From [Collinsella] massiliensis (lineage in GTDB: Bacteria; Actinomycetota; Coriobacteriia; Coriobacteriales; Coriobacteriaceae), in contig CAPI01000011.1 of assembly GCA_000333815.1 (NCBI GenBank), positions 1-50,845 on the forward strand: DNA of 50,845 bases, written 5' to 3'. The notes under the pieces are model-generated. The model saw only the letters and a list, made by a program, of their open reading frames with translations. It did no database searches and was not told the origin of the DNA. The translations under genes were made by a program, and so were the position numbers. Positions 15 to 50,845 of the stretch are shown here, piece by piece; positions within the stretch are counted from its first letter, which is position 1; each line of letters begins with the position of its first letter.

Positions 15-155
15 GTTCGAGCTCCGAATCTGAGTGGGATTTGGGAATCGCTCAGTAGCCTCGCTATGCCCATCCTCGCTACCAGCGCTTTTTCTGATCA
101 GGACGTGCTGTCTACTCGCAGCTTCCCAAATCCCACTCAGATTCGGAGCTCGAAC
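15..155. repeat. ~140-bp palindromic element, copy 1
   Basis: The outer 33 bp (15-47 and 123-155) are a perfect inverted repeat beginning GTTCGAGCTCCGAATC. Inside, AGTAG near 54-58 can pair with CTACT near 112-116, and about 50 nt form the loop. Two related elements of 140 bp lie at 41754-41893 and 43195-43334. They share the GTTCGAG termini, a GTGGGATTT-type arm and the AGTAG/CTACT inner pair. This copy lies just beyond the terminator of the leftward ABC-transporter genes. No transposase is next to it. Confidence 0.8.
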
Positions 156-3351: not shown

Positions 3352-3365
3352 GATCTTCCTTCCTT

Positions 3366-3514
3366 GCGTCATAAAGGGACGGGTTCAAAACGTTACTTTT
3401 TGCTACATTTGGGGACAGGCTTTGGTCCTGCCGCGCGGGGCGCCGCCCGATGCGTCATAAAGGGACGGGTTCAAAACGTTACCTTTTACATCACGTTGGA
3501 CCCGTCCCTTTTTG
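3366..3514. repeat. GGGACGGGTTC repeat locus 1
   Basis: Two 31-bp direct copies starting GCGTCATAAAGGGACGGG lie at 3366-3396 and 3452-3482. An inverted unit, GGACCCGTCCCTTTTT, lies at about 3499-3514. The second and third units can form a hairpin with stem AAAGGGACGGGTYC. This would also serve as a terminator for the leftward gene ending at 3528. The same core recurs at 13704-13803 and inside the coding sequence at 33912-33977. Confidence 0.75.
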
Positions 3515-7681: not shown

Positions 7682-7712
7682 ATGTAAAATAACCCCTGGG
7701 GTAAATTTACAT
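7682..7712. repeat. 31-bp CCCCTGGGG palindrome, copy A
   Basis: Near-perfect palindrome: ATGTAAAAT at one end, ATTTACAT at the other, with AACCCCTGGGGT in the centre. It is identical over all 31 bases to the copy at 11443-11473. It lies between the divergent htpG and LRR-protein genes, just upstream of the LRR gene promoter. Confidence 0.85.
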
Positions 7713-10800: not shown

Positions 10801-11377
10801 TATCGGTAGGACGCCCATCGAAACGCTTGATCTTTCAGGTTGTTCAAAACTCCAGGAACTCTGGGGCGATCAGTGCTCGCTCACTGCTCTGGACGTCTCC
10901 CACTGCCCCAAGCTCACACTCCTCAGCTTTGACAGCCCAGCTCTCACGACGCTCATGCTCGACAATCCCATGCTCGAAGATTTGCTCATCAGTGACACTA
11001 ACTTAAGTGAGCTCGATCTCTCAAGCTGCCCGAATCTCACTACGTTGACCTGTGTCAACAGCCCCATCGATGAGCTCGACCTCTCCGCTGTACCAAAGCT
11101 TGAAAGCCTTGACTGCCATGGCTGCGACCTCACCGAACTCGATGTGAGCGCGCTCAACAACCTGACGTCACTTGGCTGCTCAGACAACCAGCTCACGGAG
11201 CTCGACCTCTCCGGTTGCCCGCTCCTGGAAACGTTGGACTGCGAGAATAACCAGCTCACGGAGCTCGACATCAGCGTCTGCCCGAACCTGAGATTCCTGC
11301 ATTGCAAGAACAACCCCATTGAGGACACCTCGGCACTCGAGGAGTGGTTCCAGAACGGCGGCCAAGGCGAGATGTAA
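7808..11377 (+). CDS. Large secreted/surface protein: internal LPGTG, SLH-like, LRR repeats
   Basis: 1,189 aa from the ATG at 7808, which follows a GGGGGG site. In order: a signal peptide (1-28, ending AIAFAAA); a DUF11-like beta domain (about 30-105); an acidic Ser/Thr/Pro linker; LPGTG at 150-154 with a hydrophobic stretch and Lys-Arg, a complete sortase-type signal in mid-chain; a second hydrophobic segment (about 181-200) ending in AYAAE, which looks like another export signal; an SLH-like domain (about 248-325, ITRGEWLAKLL...PATR); a beta-rich region (about 340-820); and C-terminal leucine-rich repeats (about 920-1180, LSELDLSSCPNLTTL type). It is probably displayed at the cell surface. 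The order looks like two surface-protein reading units joined. No partner genes are adjacent. Family-level function unknown. Confidence 0.88.
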   Translation: MRRTRKLLAAIMLCVVALLAPAIAFAAAEGSLAATLSSDRDSYAAGDTATFTLELINDGTAPITDVAYRFELPEGVTLAEGSQLNGSISAIDAGNSAEAAIQVVLPDREQGGEPGDTEDDGEQTPPSSEDGQTGNESQPATDTGAADTGLPGTGNTLAIVALALAAGGCVALFAGKRLHNSNASLVIIGTVALAATLACGAMTSTAYAAEATQTLTCSKTVTVDGQDLTVQATITYMVADEPEEPDPGDTTPITRGEWLAKLLNATNTGDFEADPAADAACPFTDIADSPYAEQIKTAYALGSLPDDIANADTFSPDEPATRDFMFSTAMLHAGFYDTGAGLDASDADAATHPSLLQIAVEQGIAELDENGALRPQDAATVSEADTVAGRIAALDFDTDAPAGGDPVVNYALQDDVILLDSCEQIDDDSFVLDVPYDEVAGVETQQDDSTTTYRAARAPFKFPSVGSKVAYLGDGEGDEGFAGTVLSLHAYEDGNRTLFDYAQATDPSEIYQSIEVTATDQGDRLANVEPVDGATILPADGASAQQSGRAIDISGEDGFTISFDDLKIKDAGSVSGSVNIIPSIDVDFDWEFPATIKRARAVVNLDTTVNVTADFDGVDETVDLLKHPITVPIASGANIAFDLKLHIKADGSAEVNVEFDQKIGARYRNDAFQKISKTTVDEENTHCAVRAEFALGAVPIVQLRFTKIGLFDISAELGGAGDGEAITRTTGITCIDANAYVYGSLSVGTNTSWMKWAHLTYTKDVWKQGSTPFEGSWHFESTGKDGALELVDECTQKDVPGSSATPAEDFEYTIENDGVHIERYIGDDTEVIIPANIEGKPVVYACLGVESSLSGMYPTANNVERVSLEEGSQLVEFRIWNESQGSGVGNWEYKLDSLDTGNAEKLEVIFLGDDRPVELLLGNSPDLREVSALPTNNLDLRQYRYLETVEVSSTYTSWDNLISELKLGDHPNLTKLYVSGTDISELDLSGCPNLTVLDIGRTPIETLDLSGCSKLQELWGDQCSLTALDVSHCPKLTLLSFDSPALTTLMLDNPMLEDLLISDTNLSELDLSSCPNLTTLTCVNSPIDELDLSAVPKLESLDCHGCDLTELDVSALNNLTSLGCSDNQLTELDLSGCPLLETLDCENNQLTELDISVCPNLRFLHCKNNPIEDTSALEEWFQNGGQGEM

Positions 11378-11442: not shown

Positions 11443-11473
11443 ATGTAAAATAACCCCTGGGGTAAATTTACAT
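11443..11473. repeat. 31-bp CCCCTGGGG palindrome, copy B
   Basis: Identical to the copy at 7682-7712. It lies between two convergent genes and supplies the TAA stop (11468-11470) and last Met codon of the sensor kinase, so the palindrome overlaps coding sequence. Confidence 0.85.
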
Positions 11474-13591: not shown

Positions 13592-13703
13592 CGGAAACGT
13601 CACCCCAAGAACAGCTGTGACCGTGAGTTTTCTTCATAGTACACGTTATGTATCGCGCTTCATGAGGCAGAAAGCACATTGTAAAGATAGCGTAAGCCGC
13701 CTT

Positions 13704-13803
13704 GAGTCATTGGGGACGGGTTCGTTTGACTCAGTGAGTCAAACGAACCCGTCCCCAATGTCTCGGTGAGTCAATTGAACCCGTCCCCAATGACTCCAAT
13801 GAC
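13704..13803. repeat. GGGACGGGTTC repeat locus 2
   Basis: A perfect 26-bp inverted repeat (13708-13733 and 13735-13760) has one central base and the core ATTGGGGACGGGTTCGTTTG. A third, partly diverged unit, TGAGTCAATTGAACCCGTCC, follows at about 13767-13796. It begins at the stop of the leftward kinase gene (13804) and may act as its terminator, though there is no clean T-run. Confidence 0.85.
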
Positions 13804-15081
13804 TCACAGGGTGATGGTGAAGACCGTCTTCTCCGGGGTGGAGGTGCACTCGATCGTGCCGCCGTGCGCGGTGACGATCTCCTTCGCGATGGCGAGCCCC
13901 AAGCCCGCACCGCCGCGGTTCGTGGCGCGTGCAGCGTCGAGCCGGTAGAACTTCTCGAAGATGACCTTGAGCTTGGGCTCCGGGATGGGGTCGCCGTGGT
14001 TCTCGAAGCGGATGACGACCCCCGTGCCGTCCCGACGCTCCGCCACGATGCGAATCGTCGTGCCCTCGTAGCTGTACGCGATGGCGTTGCGCATCACGTT
14101 GTTGAACACGCGCGCCATCTTGTCGCCGTCGATGAGCGCCTTGAGCCCCGGCTCGCACTCGATCTCCACGCGCTTGCCCTGCTCGGTAAGGATGGGATAG
14201 AACTCGTCCGCCACCTGCCCGAGCATGAGGCTCAGATCCACGTAGCCGCGCGTGAGCACCATGCCGTGGAAATCGAAGCGCGTGATGTCGAAGAACTCCT
14301 CAATGAGCGCGTCGAGCCGGTGCGCCTTCTCGAGCGCCACCGACGTGAAGCGCGACCGCTGCTCCACGGGCAGGTCGGGCGCCTCGTCGAGAAGCGACAG
14401 GTAGCCCACGATGCTCGCGAGCGGCGTCTTGAGGTCGTGCGCGAGGTAGGTCACGAGGTCGTCCTTGCGGCGCGCCTCGTTGCGCAGCGCCTGCTCGCCC
14501 GCGCGCCGCCGCTGGCGCACGAGGTTGATCGCGCTCTCCGCCTCCAGGTAATCGCCGTCGAGCTGACCCCAATCGTCCGGATGGTCGATGAGCCGGTCCG
14601 TGATGTGGCGCGCGATGGCTTCGTCCGCCTGCTGGTGTCCCCGTTCGAGCCCGTAATAATACAGCGCGCGACCCACGAAGAACGCGAGGCACACGGCGAG
14701 CGCGAGCAAAAAGCCGCAGAGCGAGAAGAGGTACCCCGCGCTGAAGAGGATGGGGAACTGGCTGTTCCCCATGATGAGGCCGCCCAAAAACAGCACGACG
14801 ATCCACGCCGCCCCGCCGAGCACGATGCAACGGCGCGCCTCGATATAGCGATCCACCACGAGGTAGCTCGCGAACAAGATCACCAAGATGGCAATCGGCT
14901 CGTCAGCTCCCAAGAGCATGACGAGCAAGACGAGCATCGTGATCGTGGCGAGTAGCTTGCTTGAGGTGAGCTTGAGGAGCTGCGAGATGAAGACGTTGCC
15001 CCCGAACGCCTCGGGGGCAAGTGAATCGGGATCCTGCGGCGCGCTCTCGGCAGGCTGGTTCGGCCGTGCGTCCATGCGCAT
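13804..15081 (-). CDS. Sensor histidine kinase (VanS-like)
   Basis: 425-aa kinase with four predicted membrane segments in the N-terminal part (about 43-58, 62-78, 88-104 and 112-140) and almost no extracellular domain. HisKA motif TYLAHDLKTPLASIVGYLSL, H215. N-box (NNVMRNAIAYS), G1 variant (ENHGDPIP), F-box (EKFYRLD) and G2 (GGAGLGLAI) are present. The ENHGDPIP G1 is the form seen in VanS-type kinases. The start lies 3 nt after the regulator stop; a second ATG two codons later is equally possible. VanS-like kinases control cell-wall genes, and the gene divergent from this operon is a D-Ala-D-Ala carboxypeptidase. Confidence 0.9.
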   Translation of the reverse strand: MRMDARPNQPAESAPQDPDSLAPEAFGGNVFISQLLKLTSSKLLATITMLVLLVMLLGADEPIAILVILFASYLVVDRYIEARRCIVLGGAAWIVVLFLGGLIMGNSQFPILFSAGYLFSLCGFLLALAVCLAFFVGRALYYYGLERGHQQADEAIARHITDRLIDHPDDWGQLDGDYLEAESAINLVRQRRRAGEQALRNEARRKDDLVTYLAHDLKTPLASIVGYLSLLDEAPDLPVEQRSRFTSVALEKAHRLDALIEEFFDITRFDFHGMVLTRGYVDLSLMLGQVADEFYPILTEQGKRVEIECEPGLKALIDGDKMARVFNNVMRNAIAYSYEGTTIRIVAERRDGTGVVIRFENHGDPIPEPKLKVIFEKFYRLDAARATNRGGAGLGLAIAKEIVTAHGGTIECTSTPEKTVFTITL

Positions 15082-33794: not shown

Positions 33795-34612
33795 CGCGCA
33801 TCCCCTCCAAGTTCTGTGCTCGTGTCCTGCGCATCCGCTTCCGCATCGGGCGCCTCGTCCGTATCCTCGGGAGCTGCAGCCCCTTCCGAATCCTTTGCAT
33901 CCTCGGCCGCTGATGAGTCATTTGAACCCGTCCCCGATGACTCCGATGAGTCATTTGAACCCGTCCCCAATGACTCATCGACGCCGGAGCCGGGCGCGAC
34001 CAGGCTGACCGTCCCCTGTGCCACGGCCGCGAGCAGCTCAGACACGCGGTCGGGCTCCACGGCGAGCGTCACCCAGCTCAGGTCGCCGGATGCTCCGCCC
34101 GCCTGCTCGGCGCTCGTATCGATCACGGTCGCCCGGCATATCCGGTCCGCGAGCCCCGCGCCCGAAAGGTAGACATCGACGGCATCTCCCGACGCGACCG
34201 AACCCCCGACGGCATGCGCCGGGTCGACGGCAACCGATACCGCCACCGCGCCCTCGGGAACCTCGAGCCCACCCGTTCGCTCTTGGAAATACACCGGGCA
34301 GAGCACCGCGCGCTCGGGCACGCTGGAGCTCACGCGCTTTCCCACGACATCCTCGATCGACGTCGCCGCGCCCGCGGGCAGCAGCCCCGCGACCCAGTCC
34401 TCCATGCGCACATCGCCCTCGTCGAGCGTCTCGCCCGCCGCGATGTCGTGCGACGCCACGCACACGCTCACGACGTCCCCGCCGTAAGATGCGAGCAGGT
34501 CTTGGCGCTCGCGTTCCGCCTCGGCGCGTATGGACGAGCCGTACCACGAGACCAGCACGAGCACCAGGACTCCCGATACCGCGCTCAGCGCAAACCGAAC
34601 CCCACGCCTCAT
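33791..34612 (-). CDS. rcpC: RcpC/CpaB-like SAF-domain pilus assembly protein
   Basis: 273 aa from the ATG at 34612 (MRRGVRFALSAVSG), preceded by GGGGGTGG. There is one N-terminal membrane helix. The SAF domain (VVSVCVASHDIAAGETLDEG, about 46-110) and the CpaB/RcpC domain (GAVAVSVAVDPAHAVGGSVA) lie outside the membrane, perhaps binding the cell wall. The last ~55 residues are acidic and disordered. They contain the tandem repeat GTGSNDSSESS/GTGSNDSSAAE, which is the translated form of an intergenic repeat family. First gene of the Tad operon. No RcpA secretin gene is present, as expected for a monoderm. Confidence 0.85.
   Translation of the reverse strand: MRRGVRFALSAVSGVLVLVLVSWYGSSIRAEAERERQDLLASYGGDVVSVCVASHDIAAGETLDEGDVRMEDWVAGLLPAGAATSIEDVVGKRVSSSVPERAVLCPVYFQERTGGLEVPEGAVAVSVAVDPAHAVGGSVASGDAVDVYLSGAGLADRICRATVIDTSAEQAGGASGDLSWVTLAVEPDRVSELLAAVAQGTVSLVAPGSGVDESLGTGSNDSSESSGTGSNDSSAAEDAKDSEGAAAPEDTDEAPDAEADAQDTSTELGGDAR
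33912..33977. repeat. GGGACGGGTTC repeat locus 3, in frame within rcpC
   Basis: Two tandem 33-bp units (33912-33944 and 33945-33977) with core TTTGAACCCGTCCCC. The period is 11 codons, so the frame is kept. Same family as 3366-3514 and 13704-13803. Confidence 0.85.
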
Positions 34613-39890: not shown

Positions 39891-39921
39891 ATGTAAAAAC
39901 ACCCCAGGGGTAATTTTACAT
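39891..39921. repeat. 31-bp CCCCAGGGG palindrome, copy C
   Basis: ATGTAAAAAC-ACCCCAGGGG-TAATTTTACAT, matching copies A and B in length, ends and core. It lies between the divergent ATPase and pyk genes. Confidence 0.85.
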
Positions 39922-39983: not shown

Positions 39984-40052
39984 GGTAATAAATCGGTAAT
40001 CGGTCGAAATTCTCCGATGAACGGCGTATTTCGAGCCCGTTTCACCTATAAT
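39984..40052 (+). promoter_or_regulatory. Promoter region of pyruvate kinase
   Basis: A consensus TATAAT sits at 40047-40052, 55 nt before the pyk ATG, with no clear -35. Two GGTAAT direct repeats (39984-39989 and 39995-40000), 11 bp apart, lie upstream and could be a regulator site. Nothing else is evident in the 39704-40107 gap apart from palindrome copy C. Confidence 0.4.
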
Positions 40053-40107
40053 GCACACACCAGAAAGACGTATCGAGCCGTTTACGACACCGATAATGGA
40101 GGTCTGC

Positions 40108-41580
40108 ATGTATAAACGCACGAAAATCGTCTGCACGATGGGACCCGCCTGCGACAACGACGAGACGCTGCGCGAGATGATGAAGGCGGGTATGAATATC
40201 GCTCGCTTCAACTTTTCCCACGGTGACTACGCCGAGCACCACGAGCGCATCGAGCGCGTCCGCCGCATCGCCGCCGAGCTCGACATGACGATCGGCATCC
40301 TGCTCGACACCAAGGGTCCCGAGGTCCGCACCGGCCTGCTCGAGGGCCACAAGAAGGTCGCCGTCAAGACCGGTGACAAGATCATCGTCACCGCGCGTCC
40401 CACGTCCGAGGACTTCCTGGGTAACGCTGGCCACATCTCCCTCGACTATCTCGACCTCCCCAGCGAGGTCGAAGCCGGCTCGCGCATCCTCATCGACGAC
40501 GGCATCGTCGAGCTCGTCGTGGAGAGCGTCGACGGCCAGGACATGCACTGCGTCGTCAAGAACGACGGCGAGATCGGCGAGCGCAAGGGCGTGAACCTCC
40601 CCAACGTCGAGATCGGCCTGCCCGCCATTACCGAGCGCGACCGCGCCGACATCCTCTTCGGCCTGAAGGAGGGCATCGACTACATCGCGGCCTCCTTCAT
40701 CCGCAACGGCGCCGCCGTGCGCGAGATCCGCGAGCTCTGCCGTGAGAACGGCGGCGAGCACGTGGGCATCTTCCCCAAGATCGAGTGCGCGCTGGGCGTC
40801 CAGAACTTCGACGAGATCCTGAAGGCGTCCGATGGCATCATGGTCGCCCGCGGCGACCTGGGCATCGAGATCGCGCCCGAGCTCGTGCCGCACCTGCAGA
40901 AGAAGATGATCAAGAAGTGCAACGCCGCGTACAAGCCGGTCATTACCGCCACGCAGATGCTCGACTCCATGATCCGCAACCCGCGCCCCACGCGCGCCGA
41001 GGTCGCCGACGTCGCCAACGCCATCTATGACGGCACCGACGCCGTGATGCTCTCCGGCGAGTCCGCGGCCGGCAAGTACCCGGTCGAGGCCGTGCGCATG
41101 CAGGCGAGCATCGCGCACGAAACCGAGCAGTACCTGGGCCTGCACGCCGAGCTCAAGGTGCCCGAGGGCAGCCAGAGCACGCGCGTCATCAACAACGTCG
41201 TGGGCCTCTCAGCCGTGAACATGGCCACCACCGTGGGCGCGAAGTGCATCATCTGCCCCACCACCACCGGCCGCACGGCGCGCCTCATCTCGCATTTCCG
41301 CCCCGCCGTCCCGGTCGTGGCGTTCTCGCGCCACCAGTGGGCCGTGCAGAAGATGCTCATGTACTGGGGCATCGAGCCGCACCTCGCCGCCATCACGCAG
41401 GGCAGCAGCGTCGACGACACGGTGGCCAAGGCCATCGAGACCGCCAAGGAGCGCGGCTACGTGGAGCCCGGCGACGTCACCGTCGTGACCGTCGGCGACC
41501 CCAAGACCGCCGTCGACTCCACCCTCGGCGACGGCAAGCGCAGCTCAACGAACGTGGTCTACGTCGCTCAGGTGCGCTAA
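40108..41580 (+). CDS. pyk: Pyruvate kinase
   Basis: 490 aa from the ATG at 40108 (MYKRTKIVCTMGPACDN), with GGAGG five bases upstream. It converts phosphoenolpyruvate and ADP to pyruvate and ATP at the end of glycolysis. TIM-barrel motifs are RFNFSHG, DTKGPEVRTG, IFPKIECALG, MVARGDLGIEI and the TATQMLDSM loop; SGESAAGKYPVEAV follows. The C-terminal allosteric domain (GRTARLISHFRPAVPVVAF) is complete. Monocistronic. Confidence 0.97.
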   Translation: MYKRTKIVCTMGPACDNDETLREMMKAGMNIARFNFSHGDYAEHHERIERVRRIAAELDMTIGILLDTKGPEVRTGLLEGHKKVAVKTGDKIIVTARPTSEDFLGNAGHISLDYLDLPSEVEAGSRILIDDGIVELVVESVDGQDMHCVVKNDGEIGERKGVNLPNVEIGLPAITERDRADILFGLKEGIDYIAASFIRNGAAVREIRELCRENGGEHVGIFPKIECALGVQNFDEILKASDGIMVARGDLGIEIAPELVPHLQKKMIKKCNAAYKPVITATQMLDSMIRNPRPTRAEVADVANAIYDGTDAVMLSGESAAGKYPVEAVRMQASIAHETEQYLGLHAELKVPEGSQSTRVINNVVGLSAVNMATTVGAKCIICPTTTGRTARLISHFRPAVPVVAFSRHQWAVQKMLMYWGIEPHLAAITQGSSVDDTVAKAIETAKERGYVEPGDVTVVTVGDPKTAVDSTLGDGKRSSTNVVYVAQVR

Positions 41581-41753
41581 GCGCGACTGACGCCGGGTAG
41601 CGCATGGCAGATGCGTGCGCCCCGCGAGCACTTGACCCTTTTACGCCCCGTATGGCAGACGCCGTGAGCGTCGAACCCGTTTTTTCGATGTCCGAGAAGC
41701 GGGTTACGCCATGCGGGGCGGTTCTGTTTTCAAATGGGAGCATTGCTGCGGAC

Positions 41754-41893
41754 GTTCGAGCCTTGATACTGTGTGGGATTTCGGAAATGCCGAGTAGAGA
41801 CTCGATTCTCTTGGCAAAACCGCAGCTTACAGACACTCGTGATGGCCGTGTACTCGGTCCCTGGCAAATCCCACTCAGTTTCGAGCCCCGAAC
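41754..41893. repeat. ~140-bp palindromic element, copy 2
   Basis: The left arm starts GTTCGAGCCTTGATACTG and the right arm ends CTCAGTTTCGAGCCCCGAAC. The arms pair imperfectly over about 30 bp, with an inner CCGAGTA/TACTCGG pair. It is in the same orientation as copy 3. The right arm overlaps the last codons and stop of the leftward gene at 41875. Confidence 0.8.
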
Positions 41894-42990
41894 TTGCTTT
41901 GCTCCCTCGACACACGCTGAATCTCCCCGAGATTCCACCAATCTATCGACAAATCCGCCAGCAACGATCGCTCTGCGCGCTTGAGCCCTTTGCTTTTTGG
42001 CTTCAGGTCGACATGCAATAGCCCGGCAATGCACTTCGCCGTGTCATCCAGATGGTATTCGTCTTTGAGCTGCCGCGAGCGCAGGCGCAAAACAGTGTGC
42101 CCCATACTCTGGAGCGCCATCGCTCGGTTATCATCCTCTGCAGCCCGCTCTCCACCGTGATAGGCATTTCCCTGGCACTCGACGATAAGCGGAGGGCGCC
42201 GCTCGTCACCTTCGAAATACAAATCCGCAAAGCACGTCCGCTCGGTGCATATCCTTCTGGCCTGAGCAGATAGCGGTATCGGATGGTTAAGCTCGAGCGG
42301 AGCAAAGCCTTGCCCGCCCCGGCGCCTCGGCATACCCAGGAGCATTGCCGCCCGCACCTCGAACGGCGACGACGCCATGCCATACACGTCGCGAGCAGCT
42401 GCTTTGAGCCTGCCCACTCCCGGCACTCCCTCCACGCTCGAAACGAAGCGATTGAAATCGTTCCACTGGATAAGGGGAGGACGCTTCCATAAATCCGTGA
42501 GGTCGCCGTCGGCATCCAAAGCTGGAACCCATCCGTCTACCGTAGACAGCGTATTCGAATCTATCTTGCTTTGGAGAGCCTCCCGCACCTCCTCCGTAGG
42601 CCTATACACCGTGAAGTTGCCCATGAACTCGTATAGCAGCATGGTGAGCTGATGCGTGGAAAGCCAGCGTCCCAGGCTCATGAGCGTAAACATCGGTGAT
42701 GTTACCGAGAAGCCATGCTCGGTATCCCAGATCATCCCAGGAAGAACCTCGTTCGCCCATACGTGGTATATGAACGAATCCGAGGGGTAACCCACGCGCT
42801 TCTCTGATATAAGCAAGTGAAACGGCGGAGCCATCGATCCGCACGGGCTCTCGCCGGCGTTTGCGCTCCGCGCAACCCAACGCTTTCCCTGCTCGTAATC
42901 GAGGTCGAGATAGTGCTCATATAGAGCGTGTACCTCAGGGGGAGTCCTGAAGTACTTGAGAGCCGTTGTATGTGAAAAGACCGCGCACAT
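41875..42990 (-). CDS. DUF559/Vsr-like PD-(D/E)XK protein with AbiEi-like N-terminus
   Basis: 371 aa. The N-terminus VFSHTTALKYF recalls AbiEi-type proteins. Residues 208-310 (SSPFEVRAAMLLGMPRRRGG...ICTERTCFADLYFEG...LIVECQGNAYHGG) look like a DUF559/Vsr-like nuclease fold. Candidate metal ligands are D256 and E271-C-Q273. GC is clearly lower than the neighbours, suggesting transfer. Its final residues (FGARN) and TGA stop lie inside element copy 2, so the original C-terminus may have been replaced. Copy 3 lies upstream in the same orientation. No restriction or methylase partner is nearby. Function unknown; defence or toxin-antitoxin is a guess. The ribosome site is weak. Confidence 0.75.
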   Translation of the reverse strand: MCAVFSHTTALKYFRTPPEVHALYEHYLDLDYEQGKRWVARSANAGESPCGSMAPPFHLLISEKRVGYPSDSFIYHVWANEVLPGMIWDTEHGFSVTSPMFTLMSLGRWLSTHQLTMLLYEFMGNFTVYRPTEEVREALQSKIDSNTLSTVDGWVPALDADGDLTDLWKRPPLIQWNDFNRFVSSVEGVPGVGRLKAAARDVYGMASSPFEVRAAMLLGMPRRRGGQGFAPLELNHPIPLSAQARRICTERTCFADLYFEGDERRPPLIVECQGNAYHGGERAAEDDNRAMALQSMGHTVLRLRSRQLKDEYHLDDTAKCIAGLLHVDLKPKSKGLKRAERSLLADLSIDWWNLGEIQRVSREQSKFGARN

Positions 42991-43194
42991 GAGCAGAGCT
43001 TAGCAACCGGACAAACGGATTGGCTCCTGAACGAAAAAGTATTCACGCGCGACCTTGCACGTATCTGACACGGGGATGACAGATTATCATCGTCGCAGGT
43101 AGATGCGTTGTTATTGTGGCAGTTTTTGTAATACCAGTGGTTCTTCGATTTTTAGATTATGCACAGCGGCGGTGCGTCGACCCGAAGAAAAGAT

Positions 43195-43334
43195 GTTCGA
43201 GCCTTGATACTGTGTGGAATTCCGGAAATGCCGAGTAGCCGCCCGCGCGTCACAGGAAACGACCAGCTCACATCGAGCCGAACCGAGCCTCTACTCACGC
43301 GATGGAAAATCCCACACAGTATCGAGGCTCGAAT
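43195..43334. repeat. ~140-bp palindromic element, copy 3
   Basis: GTTCGAGCCTTGATACTGTG at the left and CACAGTATCGAGGCTCGAA at the right form a nearly perfect terminal inverted repeat, with inner GAGTAG/CTACTC. It shares GGAAATGCCGAGTAG and a central CAGCT-C/T-ACA with copy 2. The 42991-43194 interval beside it is AT-rich and holds no gene that I see. Confidence 0.8.
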
Positions 43335-43404
43335 GTGTTCGGGGGCCACGCAGCACGGCCAACGCGGCCGCAGCCAGCGCGGCCAGCACGGCCAACACGC
43401 CCAC
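43291..43404 (-). CDS. Possible 37-aa hydrophobic peptide ending in element copy 3
   Basis: A GTG four bases after the stop of the upstream gene opens a frame reading MGVLAVLAALAAAALAVLRG (a membrane helix), then a tail encoded by the palindromic element. The GGGGTAGGG just before it could be a ribosome site. The Ala/Leu run may simply be GC-rich repeat sequence. Low certainty. Confidence 0.25.
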   Translation of the reverse strand: MGVLAVLAALAAAALAVLRGPRTHSSLDTVWDFPSRE

Positions 43405-43408
43405 GGCC

Positions 43409-44257
43409 CTACCCCAGCCGCTCTGCCAGGAGCGCGTCGGCACGGTCGACCACCTCGGCGAACACCGAATCGAAGAACTCGTCGGTGAGCAGGCGATACG
43501 GCTGCTGCACGGACGGCGGCACGTTCGTGCGCACAATCTCGTGCGCCACGCCGATGGTCATGAGCAGCGTCCGCTCGTCGATCGCGTACTGCGGAAACGC
43601 GGCTGCGGTCGCGGCGAGACGCGGGGTGAGGCGCGGCACGGAGTCGATGGCGAGCGTCTTGCCGAACGCATCGAAATCCCCCTGCTTCTTGATGCGGAAC
43701 TGCTCGCTCGGGGTGATGCCCTCGCGGTCGAGGAACTCGTTCACCCGCGTGTTCCACAGGCAGTCCGCAAGCAGGTGCACCCAAACGCCCAGCTCGAAAT
43801 CGAGCAGCGAGCGCGCGATGTCGGCGGGGGCGATCGCCGCATCGAGCGGGCTGCCCTCACGCGCCGGCTCGGGAGCACCCTCGTAGCGCTGCGGGTAGTG
43901 GGTCCGGCTCACGCGGTCGGCCTCGCGCTTGAGTGAGGAGGCGGCGATGACCGGCCGGCACTCCCCCGCCACCCGCGCGCCCTCCAGTCCCTCCGCCGTG
44001 AGCGCAGCAGCGGCCGGCACCACGTACGCATCCCAAAACTCCTGCTCACGCGGCTTGGGGATGAACGCCGGCTCCGCGAAATGCGTGATACGGTACGCGA
44101 TGGGGTGCTCCACGCCCGGCACCATGTACCCTACCGGGATGTCCGGCGTGAGGCTGCCCAGCAGAAACGCGTTGCGGTCGAGCACCGTGCGCGCCACGGC
44201 GCCCTCGCGCGCGAGCAGGCGCTCCGCGTGCGCGATATGGATATTCCAGCTGGGCAC
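43409..44257 (-). CDS. Zinc-dependent phospholipase C-like protein (PF00882 type)
   Basis: 282 aa from the GTG at 44257 (MPSWNIHIAHAERLL), with GGGAGG upstream; a TTG five codons earlier is less likely. NIHIAHAERLL, NAFLLGSLTPDIPVGYM, ITHF and GVWVHLLADCLWNTRVNEF fit the Zn-dependent phospholipase C/S1-P1 nuclease fold. The spaced His and Asp residues would bind metal. No signal peptide, so probably intracellular. The reaction is not established. It lies downstream of pheT beyond a strong hairpin and is followed by element copy 3. Confidence 0.75.
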   Translation of the reverse strand: MPSWNIHIAHAERLLAREGAVARTVLDRNAFLLGSLTPDIPVGYMVPGVEHPIAYRITHFAEPAFIPKPREQEFWDAYVVPAAAALTAEGLEGARVAGECRPVIAASSLKREADRVSRTHYPQRYEGAPEPAREGSPLDAAIAPADIARSLLDFELGVWVHLLADCLWNTRVNEFLDREGITPSEQFRIKKQGDFDAFGKTLAIDSVPRLTPRLAATAAAFPQYAIDERTLLMTIGVAHEIVRTNVPPSVQQPYRLLTDEFFDSVFAEVVDRADALLAERLG

Positions 44258-44274
44258 GTGCCCTCCCCTCAAAG

Positions 44275-46829: not shown

Positions 46830-46860
46830 ATGCAACAGTACCCCAGGGGTTTTTCTACAT
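46830..46860. repeat. 31-bp CCCCAGGGG palindrome, copy D (diverged)
   Basis: ATGCAACAGTACCCCAGGGG then TTTTTCTACAT. The core and length agree with copies A-C, but several arm bases differ. It lies between pheS and pheT and touches the pheS stop. Confidence 0.7.
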
Positions 46861-50559: not shown

Positions 50560-50845
50560 TGATTCCCCCTCAGATTCGACGTGCACCTTCGCTGCTCGTG
50601 GCCGGAACACGCGCCCGCGCGCCTGCCAGCCGTGATGCAGCGGCGCATCATCCTAACATGATTCGTCATTTTGCTGACGTTATTTATAATTTCGTCAAAT
50701 TGAGGGAGGGGGTATGGGCCTCCTCGCGCCAGCGGAATACCAAATGGCGCGAAACGAGCGGTTTATGCGGGGGTAGCAGAGTAGCCGGCAAAGTCGCGGC
50801 GCTGTTACCTGCACTTTCGTTGGCGCGCACCGCCCTGATACTTCC
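50560..50845. other. Upstream region, no clear gene
   Basis: AT-rich around 50660-50700, with two TTCGTCA repeats (near 50671 and 50693) flanking TGACGTTATTTATAAT. This could hold the promoter and operator of the leftward hydrolase gene. On the plus strand a 20-codon frame (50714-50776, MGLLAPAEYQ) has a strong GAGGGAGG site, but it is too short to judge. Confidence 0.35.

Follow-up and report, generated by a model that had tools for sequence, protein, structure and literature searches.

Elements and genes at the locus

The window, i.e. the whole 50.8-kb stretch of DNA analysed here, belongs to a 2.33-Mb genome (G000) assembled in 135 contigs, of which it is number 125. Between pyk and a gene for a Zn-dependent phospholipase C-like protein (Zn-PLPC-like gene), it carries a gene for a predicted nuclease with a copy of a palindromic element on either side; two further copies lie elsewhere in the window (Table 1). 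Each complete copy spans about 140 nt: an asymmetric core lies within an inner GAGTAG...CTACTC pair, which is itself framed by inverted outer arms; the arm type of the window is GTTCGAGCCTTGATACTGTGTGGGATTT. A repeat search placed copies at 41751-41797/41845-41893, 43192-43238/43286-43334 and 12-155, and a covariance model gave spans of 41753-41895, 43194-43336 and 13-156, plus 50739-50845. When the whole window was scanned for palindromes (span 110-190, score ≥16), two places were returned, both of them element copies.

Table 1 Positions of the elements, their parts and the neighbouring genes in the window.
Feature	Position	Strand	Remarks
Element copy 1	15-155	+	Dispersed; same arm type as copies 2 and 3; no such gene adjoining within the window
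pyk	40051-41580	+	Pyruvate kinase; conserved neighbour
Element copy 2	41754-41893	-	3' of the nuclease gene; repeat search and covariance model
Copy 2, arms	41754-41781 and 41866-41893
Copy 2, inner motifs	41792-41797 and 41851-41855		GAGTAG and TACTC
Copy 2, core	41815-41829	-
Nuclease gene	41875-42990	-	371 aa; AbiEi-like N-terminal part (about 1-205), predicted Vsr/DUF559-type nuclease (about 206-328)
Element copy 3	43195-43334	-	About 205 nt 5' of the nuclease gene; core diverged
Copy 3, arms	about 43195-43221 and about 43306-43333
Copy 3, inner motifs	43233-43238 and 43291-43296		GAGTAG and CTACTC
Zn-PLPC-like gene	43409-44272	-	Conserved neighbour; Pfam match weak, below cut-off
Element copy 4	50739-50845	+	Truncated by the contig end, 3' end missing; covariance model, E = 8.4e-6

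The original prediction described two copies in direct orientation, about 1.3 kb apart, enclosing a single gene of lower GC content. The orientation is correct because the core of copies 2 and 3 lies on the same (minus) strand; the two copies are 1301 nt apart, and the GC content is about 0.53-0.60 in the gene interval vs. 0.66-0.72 on both sides. The gene is bracketed without being fully enclosed, since its 3' end, with the stop codon, runs 19 nt into the right arm of copy 2.

Other repeats are present in the window as well. Shorter REP-like palindromes (TGAGTCATTGGGGACGGGTTC...) form clusters of alternating orientation at 13703-13806 and 33914-33986 and may be the counterparts of Y1/RAYT-type genes that this genome also contains. 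Another repeat family is represented by four copies of the 31-nt palindrome ATGTAAAATAACCCCTGGGGTAAATTTACAT (7682-7712, 11443-11473, 39891-39921 and 46830-46860), and a similar sequence is present in the interval of locus L233 in G004, another genome of the genus. At 3365-3487, TGCGTCATAAAGGGACGGGTTCAAAACGTTA... occurs as two 37-nt copies (97%), 86 nt apart, and 63-nt repeat units in register, leucine-rich-repeat-like by eye, occupy positions 10997-11311.

Among Pfam families, the window protein matches MTES_1575 and DUF559 only, with DUF559 above the cut-off (21.7 vs. 20.6 bits); the eight members on which our family profile (A1) was built match these two families, with single weak matches to DUF2726 and RAP. 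NCBIfam yielded no match for the window protein. In the AlphaFold2 model (mean pLDDT 84.8), residues 206-328, approximately, align with I-Bth0305I (3r3p; Z = 9.8, 95 aligned residues, 2.4 Å), NGO0050 (Z = 8.9) and Vsr (1cw0; Z = 8.4, 100 aligned residues, 2.9 Å). The C-terminal part is predicted from this model to have the fold of the Vsr/DUF559 nuclease superfamily, complete with conserved acidic and histidine residues: all 118 members retain E211, D256, E271, H278 and R289, the first four of which are candidate catalytic residues. The best structural match of residues 1-205 is AbiEi (PDB 6y8q; 120 aligned residues, 3.4 Å), with Z = 6.9 within the full model and Z = 6.8 when the N-terminal part is modelled alone (next match, 4.7); the similarity is moderate, and the alignment spans AbiEi residues 67-195, i.e. 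mostly the C-terminal part, and mostly outside the winged helix. When the full model is compared, mitoribosomal and other unrelated chains score as high as Z = 9, which means that a Z value does not by itself prove kinship, and Foldseek gave no match to the model at E ≤ 0.001. Both labels originally attached to the gene product, DUF559-like and AbiEi-like, agree with these matches. No match to the protein was detected by tblastn in phage records, and one strict pattern had no match in viral contigs.

Association of the nuclease gene with palindromic elements

A homologue of the nuclease gene lies in the interval between pyk and the Zn-PLPC-like gene in three of the five genomes of the genus, namely, G000, G004 (65% identical) and G002 (48% identical), and in the latter two a ~140-nt palindrome is present on either side, as in the window. 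The arms differ by species, being GTTCGCCCGCCGAGTATGAGCGGGATTCG in G004 and GTTCGAGGCTCGAGTCGGAAGGTTTTT in G002. In G001, exactly one element and no gene are found between pyk and the Zn-PLPC-like gene (zn287); in G003, neither the nuclease gene nor an element is found beside the Zn-PLPC-like gene, and pyk is replaced by another neighbour. Comparison of the pyk-pheT interval had been proposed as a check on the suggestion that the two copies and the gene form a one-gene cargo cassette. The cassette does not hold up in this comparison. The observation named as refuting it, a gene conserved at its place with no copies around it, was not made, as elements flank the gene in all three genomes that retain it; yet the gene stays in place with each species' own arms, and the copies are evidently partner sites, not a vehicle. 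As for the single-copy scar that was sought, the G001 interval does contain one element and no gene; the arms of this lone element are those found next to the member that G001 has elsewhere, so that loss by recombination is possible. In large Collinsella clusters, the gene and its flanks also stay in place.

A search of 65 genomes of the family (Coriobacteriaceae) with the A1 profile gave 122 matches at E ≤ 1e-60 (summed over genomes) in 59 of them. From most of these matches, down from the top ranks, and from named contigs, we assembled 103 distinct loci in Coriobacteriaceae and neighbours, 93 with strong members and 10 with weak ones. A palindrome (span 110-190, score ≥16) lies within 400 nt of the gene in 66 of the 93 strong members (41 of the 53 cluster representatives) and in 1 of the 10 weak paralogues. 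As controls, 93.1 kb of sequence lying more than 1 kb away from the gene gave no palindrome in the same scan, nor did the member flanks after dinucleotide shuffling (five shuffles). When the palindromes are combined with matches of a covariance model (R1), an element is found at 85 of the 93 members (49 of 53 clusters), including one locus (L014) where it is about 1.1 kb from the gene; at the other 8 members, neither method detects one. R1 was trained partly on member loci, and among the 70 untrained loci it matches 59. At weak DUF559-type paralogues of the same genomes, R1 had no match (0/9). In two other families of the order, with 25 member loci unused in the definition, palindromes were found at 20 (one of these, at L279, is possibly another repeat) and R1 matches at 13. 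The palindromes at the gene are not due to chance, and we consider it highly probable that the two form a genuine pairing.

The elements follow a common rigid plan, in which private arms surround GAGTAGAC/GTCTACTC at about ±28 and a core, TTACCT|GCGGTTTTG, sits at the exact centre of symmetry. In nearly all elements, the core stands at offset −6 relative to this centre, with GTAG at −30 and CTAC at +26/+27. The arm sequences have nothing evident in common across elements. Across 36 elements, 82.7% of the arm cells are paired vs. 56.2% in shuffled arms, and double changes number 291 vs. 100.6 (reached in 0 of 500 shuffles); when the partner is slid by one column, pairing falls to 37-38%. In the main arm helix, there are 12 G-U cells vs. 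194 double changes. The variable stretch that separates the inner motifs from the core shows no self-complementarity beyond chance (stems of at least 6 in 1 of 36 elements; 4% in shuffled sequence). Given that G-U cells are rare and inner self-complementarity is lacking, double-stranded DNA half-sites fit these data better than a structured RNA; no Rfam family was found at the elements at the gathering threshold, and the structured-RNA reading was rejected. The arms are shared in all 125 protein pairs that are at least 85% identical, and among pairs below 75% identity, only 1 of 2074 reaches the same arm score.

Dispersal of the elements and joint change of arms and N-terminus

At least tens of element copies are dispersed in each genome; counts obtained with R1, in which both strands are included, are lower bounds. 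The window genome alone contains 16 complete copies of the window arm type. Within the family, R1 elements were detected in 64 of the 65 genomes, the exception, G061, also being devoid of members. Among 396 genomes of Coriobacteriia, members are present in 81 and elements (E ≤ 1e-6) in 104; elements occur in 77 of the 81 genomes with members vs. 27 of the 315 others, a contrast inflated by shared ancestry. Thus, 4 genomes have members without elements, and several of the 27 with elements only belong to genera with members. By a crude ORF caller, 21 of 28 copies are intergenic, and upstream copies often lie 20-250 nt ahead of the start codon.

Genome G025 encodes five strong members with five arm types, and 44 of its element sites were read. 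For four of these members, the arms also occur in copies distant from the gene; for the fifth, L109, the 44 sites include no matching copy except its own. In addition, there is a 14-copy arm family, CAAAAATGACGGAAATGC (L318-L329 and others, grouped by eye), for which none of the five strong members is a cognate.

At the sites compared, we found no target-site duplication or clean empty site, and no known transposase tied to the elements. Three candidates for marks of mobility were rejected: the precise 173-nt indel between L136 (positions 879-1052) and L144 comprises other sequence adjoining the element; the element present only in G004 (L230 vs. L219) has diverged surroundings; and L268 (NZ_OY725722.1), a 1785-bp circular 'plasmid' of C. 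aerofaciens with an N-terminally short relative, is not an excision product because it is joined, as judged by eye, to transposase-like sequence and contains no element. L268 looks like an assembly chimera. The loops between the arms are strongly diverged among copies of one genome, which indicates that the arms and the core are held by constraint and argues for old sites under selection and against recent copying.

For three element sites of the window genome, G004 also has an element at the orthologous position. At the best-aligned of these (L227/L231), a 7-bp block has changed on both arms with complementarity kept (TACTGTG/CACAGTA vs. GTATGAG/CTCATAC). A change that also involves the protein is seen between L077 and L099, orthologues in one locus whose aligned stretches are 93-95% identical. 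In 25-residue windows, residues 76-357 of these proteins are about 80-100% identical (about 90% over this part), and residues 1-75 fall to 36-68%; in the upstream element, the outer arm TTTTCGGAAGT is kept and the inner arm is different. Of the 138 protein pairs with at least 78% identity beyond residue 78, 7 have a divergent N-terminus; they all differ in their arms and represent one evolutionary event (L099 vs. seven orthologues) in one contiguous tract. None of the pairs with an N-terminus at least 75% identical differs in its arms. The arms have changed in place and in a coordinated manner, and the N-terminus and the arms have changed jointly, both as established computationally; with a single event in a single tract, the joint change is due in part to physical linkage. 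These comparisons of protein and arm sequences suggest that the part of the protein that reads the arms is probably the N-terminus. The rigid plan, the privacy of the arms, the association with the gene and the dispersal are likewise direct computational observations.

Known systems, alternatives and interpretation

REPINs resemble these elements in length and inverted layout. As with RAYTs and REP/REPIN palindromes, and with TIRtrons (PMC3733652), palindromic repeats stand on both sides of a chromosomal gene and recur elsewhere in the genome; further likenesses are the protein-specific repeat type and the GTAG-like motif. By contrast, the enzyme here is not a HUH/Y1 transposase (no HUH/Y1 domain was found in the window protein by Pfam) but is predicted to be of the Vsr/DUF559 type, its N-terminus being AbiEi-like. 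The arms differ too: they are private, show Watson-Crick pairing on both sides and are separated by about 90 bp, with the fixed asymmetric core in between. Identity with RAYTs was rejected, given the lack of a Y1 domain and that G001, with no Y1 match, still has the system. AbiEi, the antitoxin of the AbiE type IV toxin-antitoxin system, is the closest structural counterpart of residues 1-205 and acts via inverted repeats, but the N-terminal part here is fused to a nuclease, and no AbiEii (DUF1814) toxin was found among the window neighbours, which are pyk, the Zn-PLPC-like gene and then pheT. The catalytic domain has the predicted fold of the EDxHD homing endonuclease I-Bth0305I and of Vsr; unlike a homing endonuclease gene, the gene here is intergenic, its site is uninterrupted, intact elements are present on both sides, and there is no sign of an intron or intein at the gene. 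Profiles of DUF559 and REase_MTES_1575 (Pfam) match the C-terminus, and the weak DUF559 paralogues of the same genomes differ in having no element. No description of the pairing was found in the open-access literature searched, including passages of PMC3733652, PMC8040213 and PMC7319586, with subscription papers outside this scope.

The main alternative, although we consider it rather unlikely, is that the protein is mostly a DNA-binding regulator or chromosome organiser, the elements are selected operators or anchors, and nuclease activity is conditional, for example on stress or phage. The age of the sites, with free loops and constrained arms, the coordinated change of arms in place, the mostly intergenic position (21/28 by a crude ORF caller) and the frequent location of upstream copies shortly before the start codon would all suit an operator, as would the precedent of AbiEi, two monomers of which bind two 23-bp inverted repeats in their own promoter for autoregulation (PMC7319586). 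It is harder to reconcile with a regulator that the putative nuclease residues are invariant in all 118 members, that several mutually private systems coexist in one genome (five in G025), which is unusual for a housekeeping architecture factor, and that a fixed asymmetric core is superfluous for simple operator binding. A toxin-antitoxin or self/non-self defence function, in which the nuclease spares its own palindromes, or is kept in check by them, while incoming DNA is attacked, appears improbable. The AbiEi-like part, the nuclease domain, the several variable systems per genome and a specificity module altered as a whole are in line with defence; against it, the neighbours, pyk and the Zn-PLPC-like gene, include no toxin that could act as partner, the interval is a conserved housekeeping one, no phage record has a match, and PADLOC has no family for the window protein, with weak 'HEase' matches (E 0.016-0.046) in two of three relatives.

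It is very improbable that the elements are MITE- or REP-like sequences spread by another enzyme, e.g. RAYT-type Y1 transposases, with the nuclease gene a mere neighbour. Y1 transposase genes are indeed present in four of the five genomes of the genus, and REPs bear GTAG tags (PMC3733652), comparable to the GAGTAG of our elements; yet G001, without a Y1 match, has members with elements, R1 matches none of 8 Y1 loci, and the arm type tracks the nuclease lineage, with an element at 85 of 93 members. We assign the lowest probability to a one-gene cargo cassette between two direct repeats: the same orientation of the two copies and the single element without a gene in G001 are compatible with it, but the persistence of the gene in three of five genomes with different flanking arms, the gene-arm matching across the order and the large Collinsella clusters with gene and flanks in place all argue otherwise.

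The reading that we favour, with confidence slightly above even, is a vertically inherited two-part system of a nuclease and its palindromes. The nuclease would recognise a private pair of inverted arms of about 15-30 bp, some 90 bp apart and symmetric around two GAGTAGAC half-motifs and the fixed asymmetric core; its gene would adjoin one or two such sites, with more cognate sites across the chromosome. The N-terminal domain would read the arms as double-stranded DNA, and the nuclease would cut at or near the core; cutting followed by repair could then allow the elements to be copied or kept. RAYTs are thought to copy or keep REPINs in a like manner. The promoter-side copy may also autoregulate the gene, which is plausible because AbiEi binds two inverted repeats and autoregulates its own promoter. 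By analogy, the two-part system would resemble a REPIN-RAYT pair in its behaviour, with an unrelated nuclease in place of the RAYT and with cleavage and mobility as putative activities. Several observations weigh against this reading: the sites compared yielded neither a target-site duplication nor a clean empty site, the loops are strongly diverged within a genome, the joint change of N-terminus and arms is a single event, L109 and the 14-copy arm family of G025 lack counterparts among the sites and strong members read, members and elements do not coincide in 4 and 27 genomes of Coriobacteriia, respectively, the similarity to AbiEi is moderate, and 8 of the 93 members show no element. There is about an even chance that this is a new class in Coriobacteriales, in which an AbiEi-like reader joined to a Vsr-like nuclease maintains private dispersed palindromes, private pairs coexist, and specificity is exchangeable as a module comprising the N-terminus and the arms.

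If true, REPIN-like biology would have been reinvented without a transposase. In bacteria, the known example of an enzyme inherited vertically alongside a population of dispersed palindromes is the REPIN/RAYT pair, the persistence of which is debated; an unrelated enzyme with the same genomic layout would make the question of persistence testable by comparison. The many natural, mutually private protein-site pairs would constitute a data set for reading nuclease DNA specificity. Furthermore, a large group of DUF559-type proteins to which no function is assigned in common gut bacteria would gain an identity, and the ~140-bp intergenic sites in these genomes are shown to be constrained sequence, not filler.
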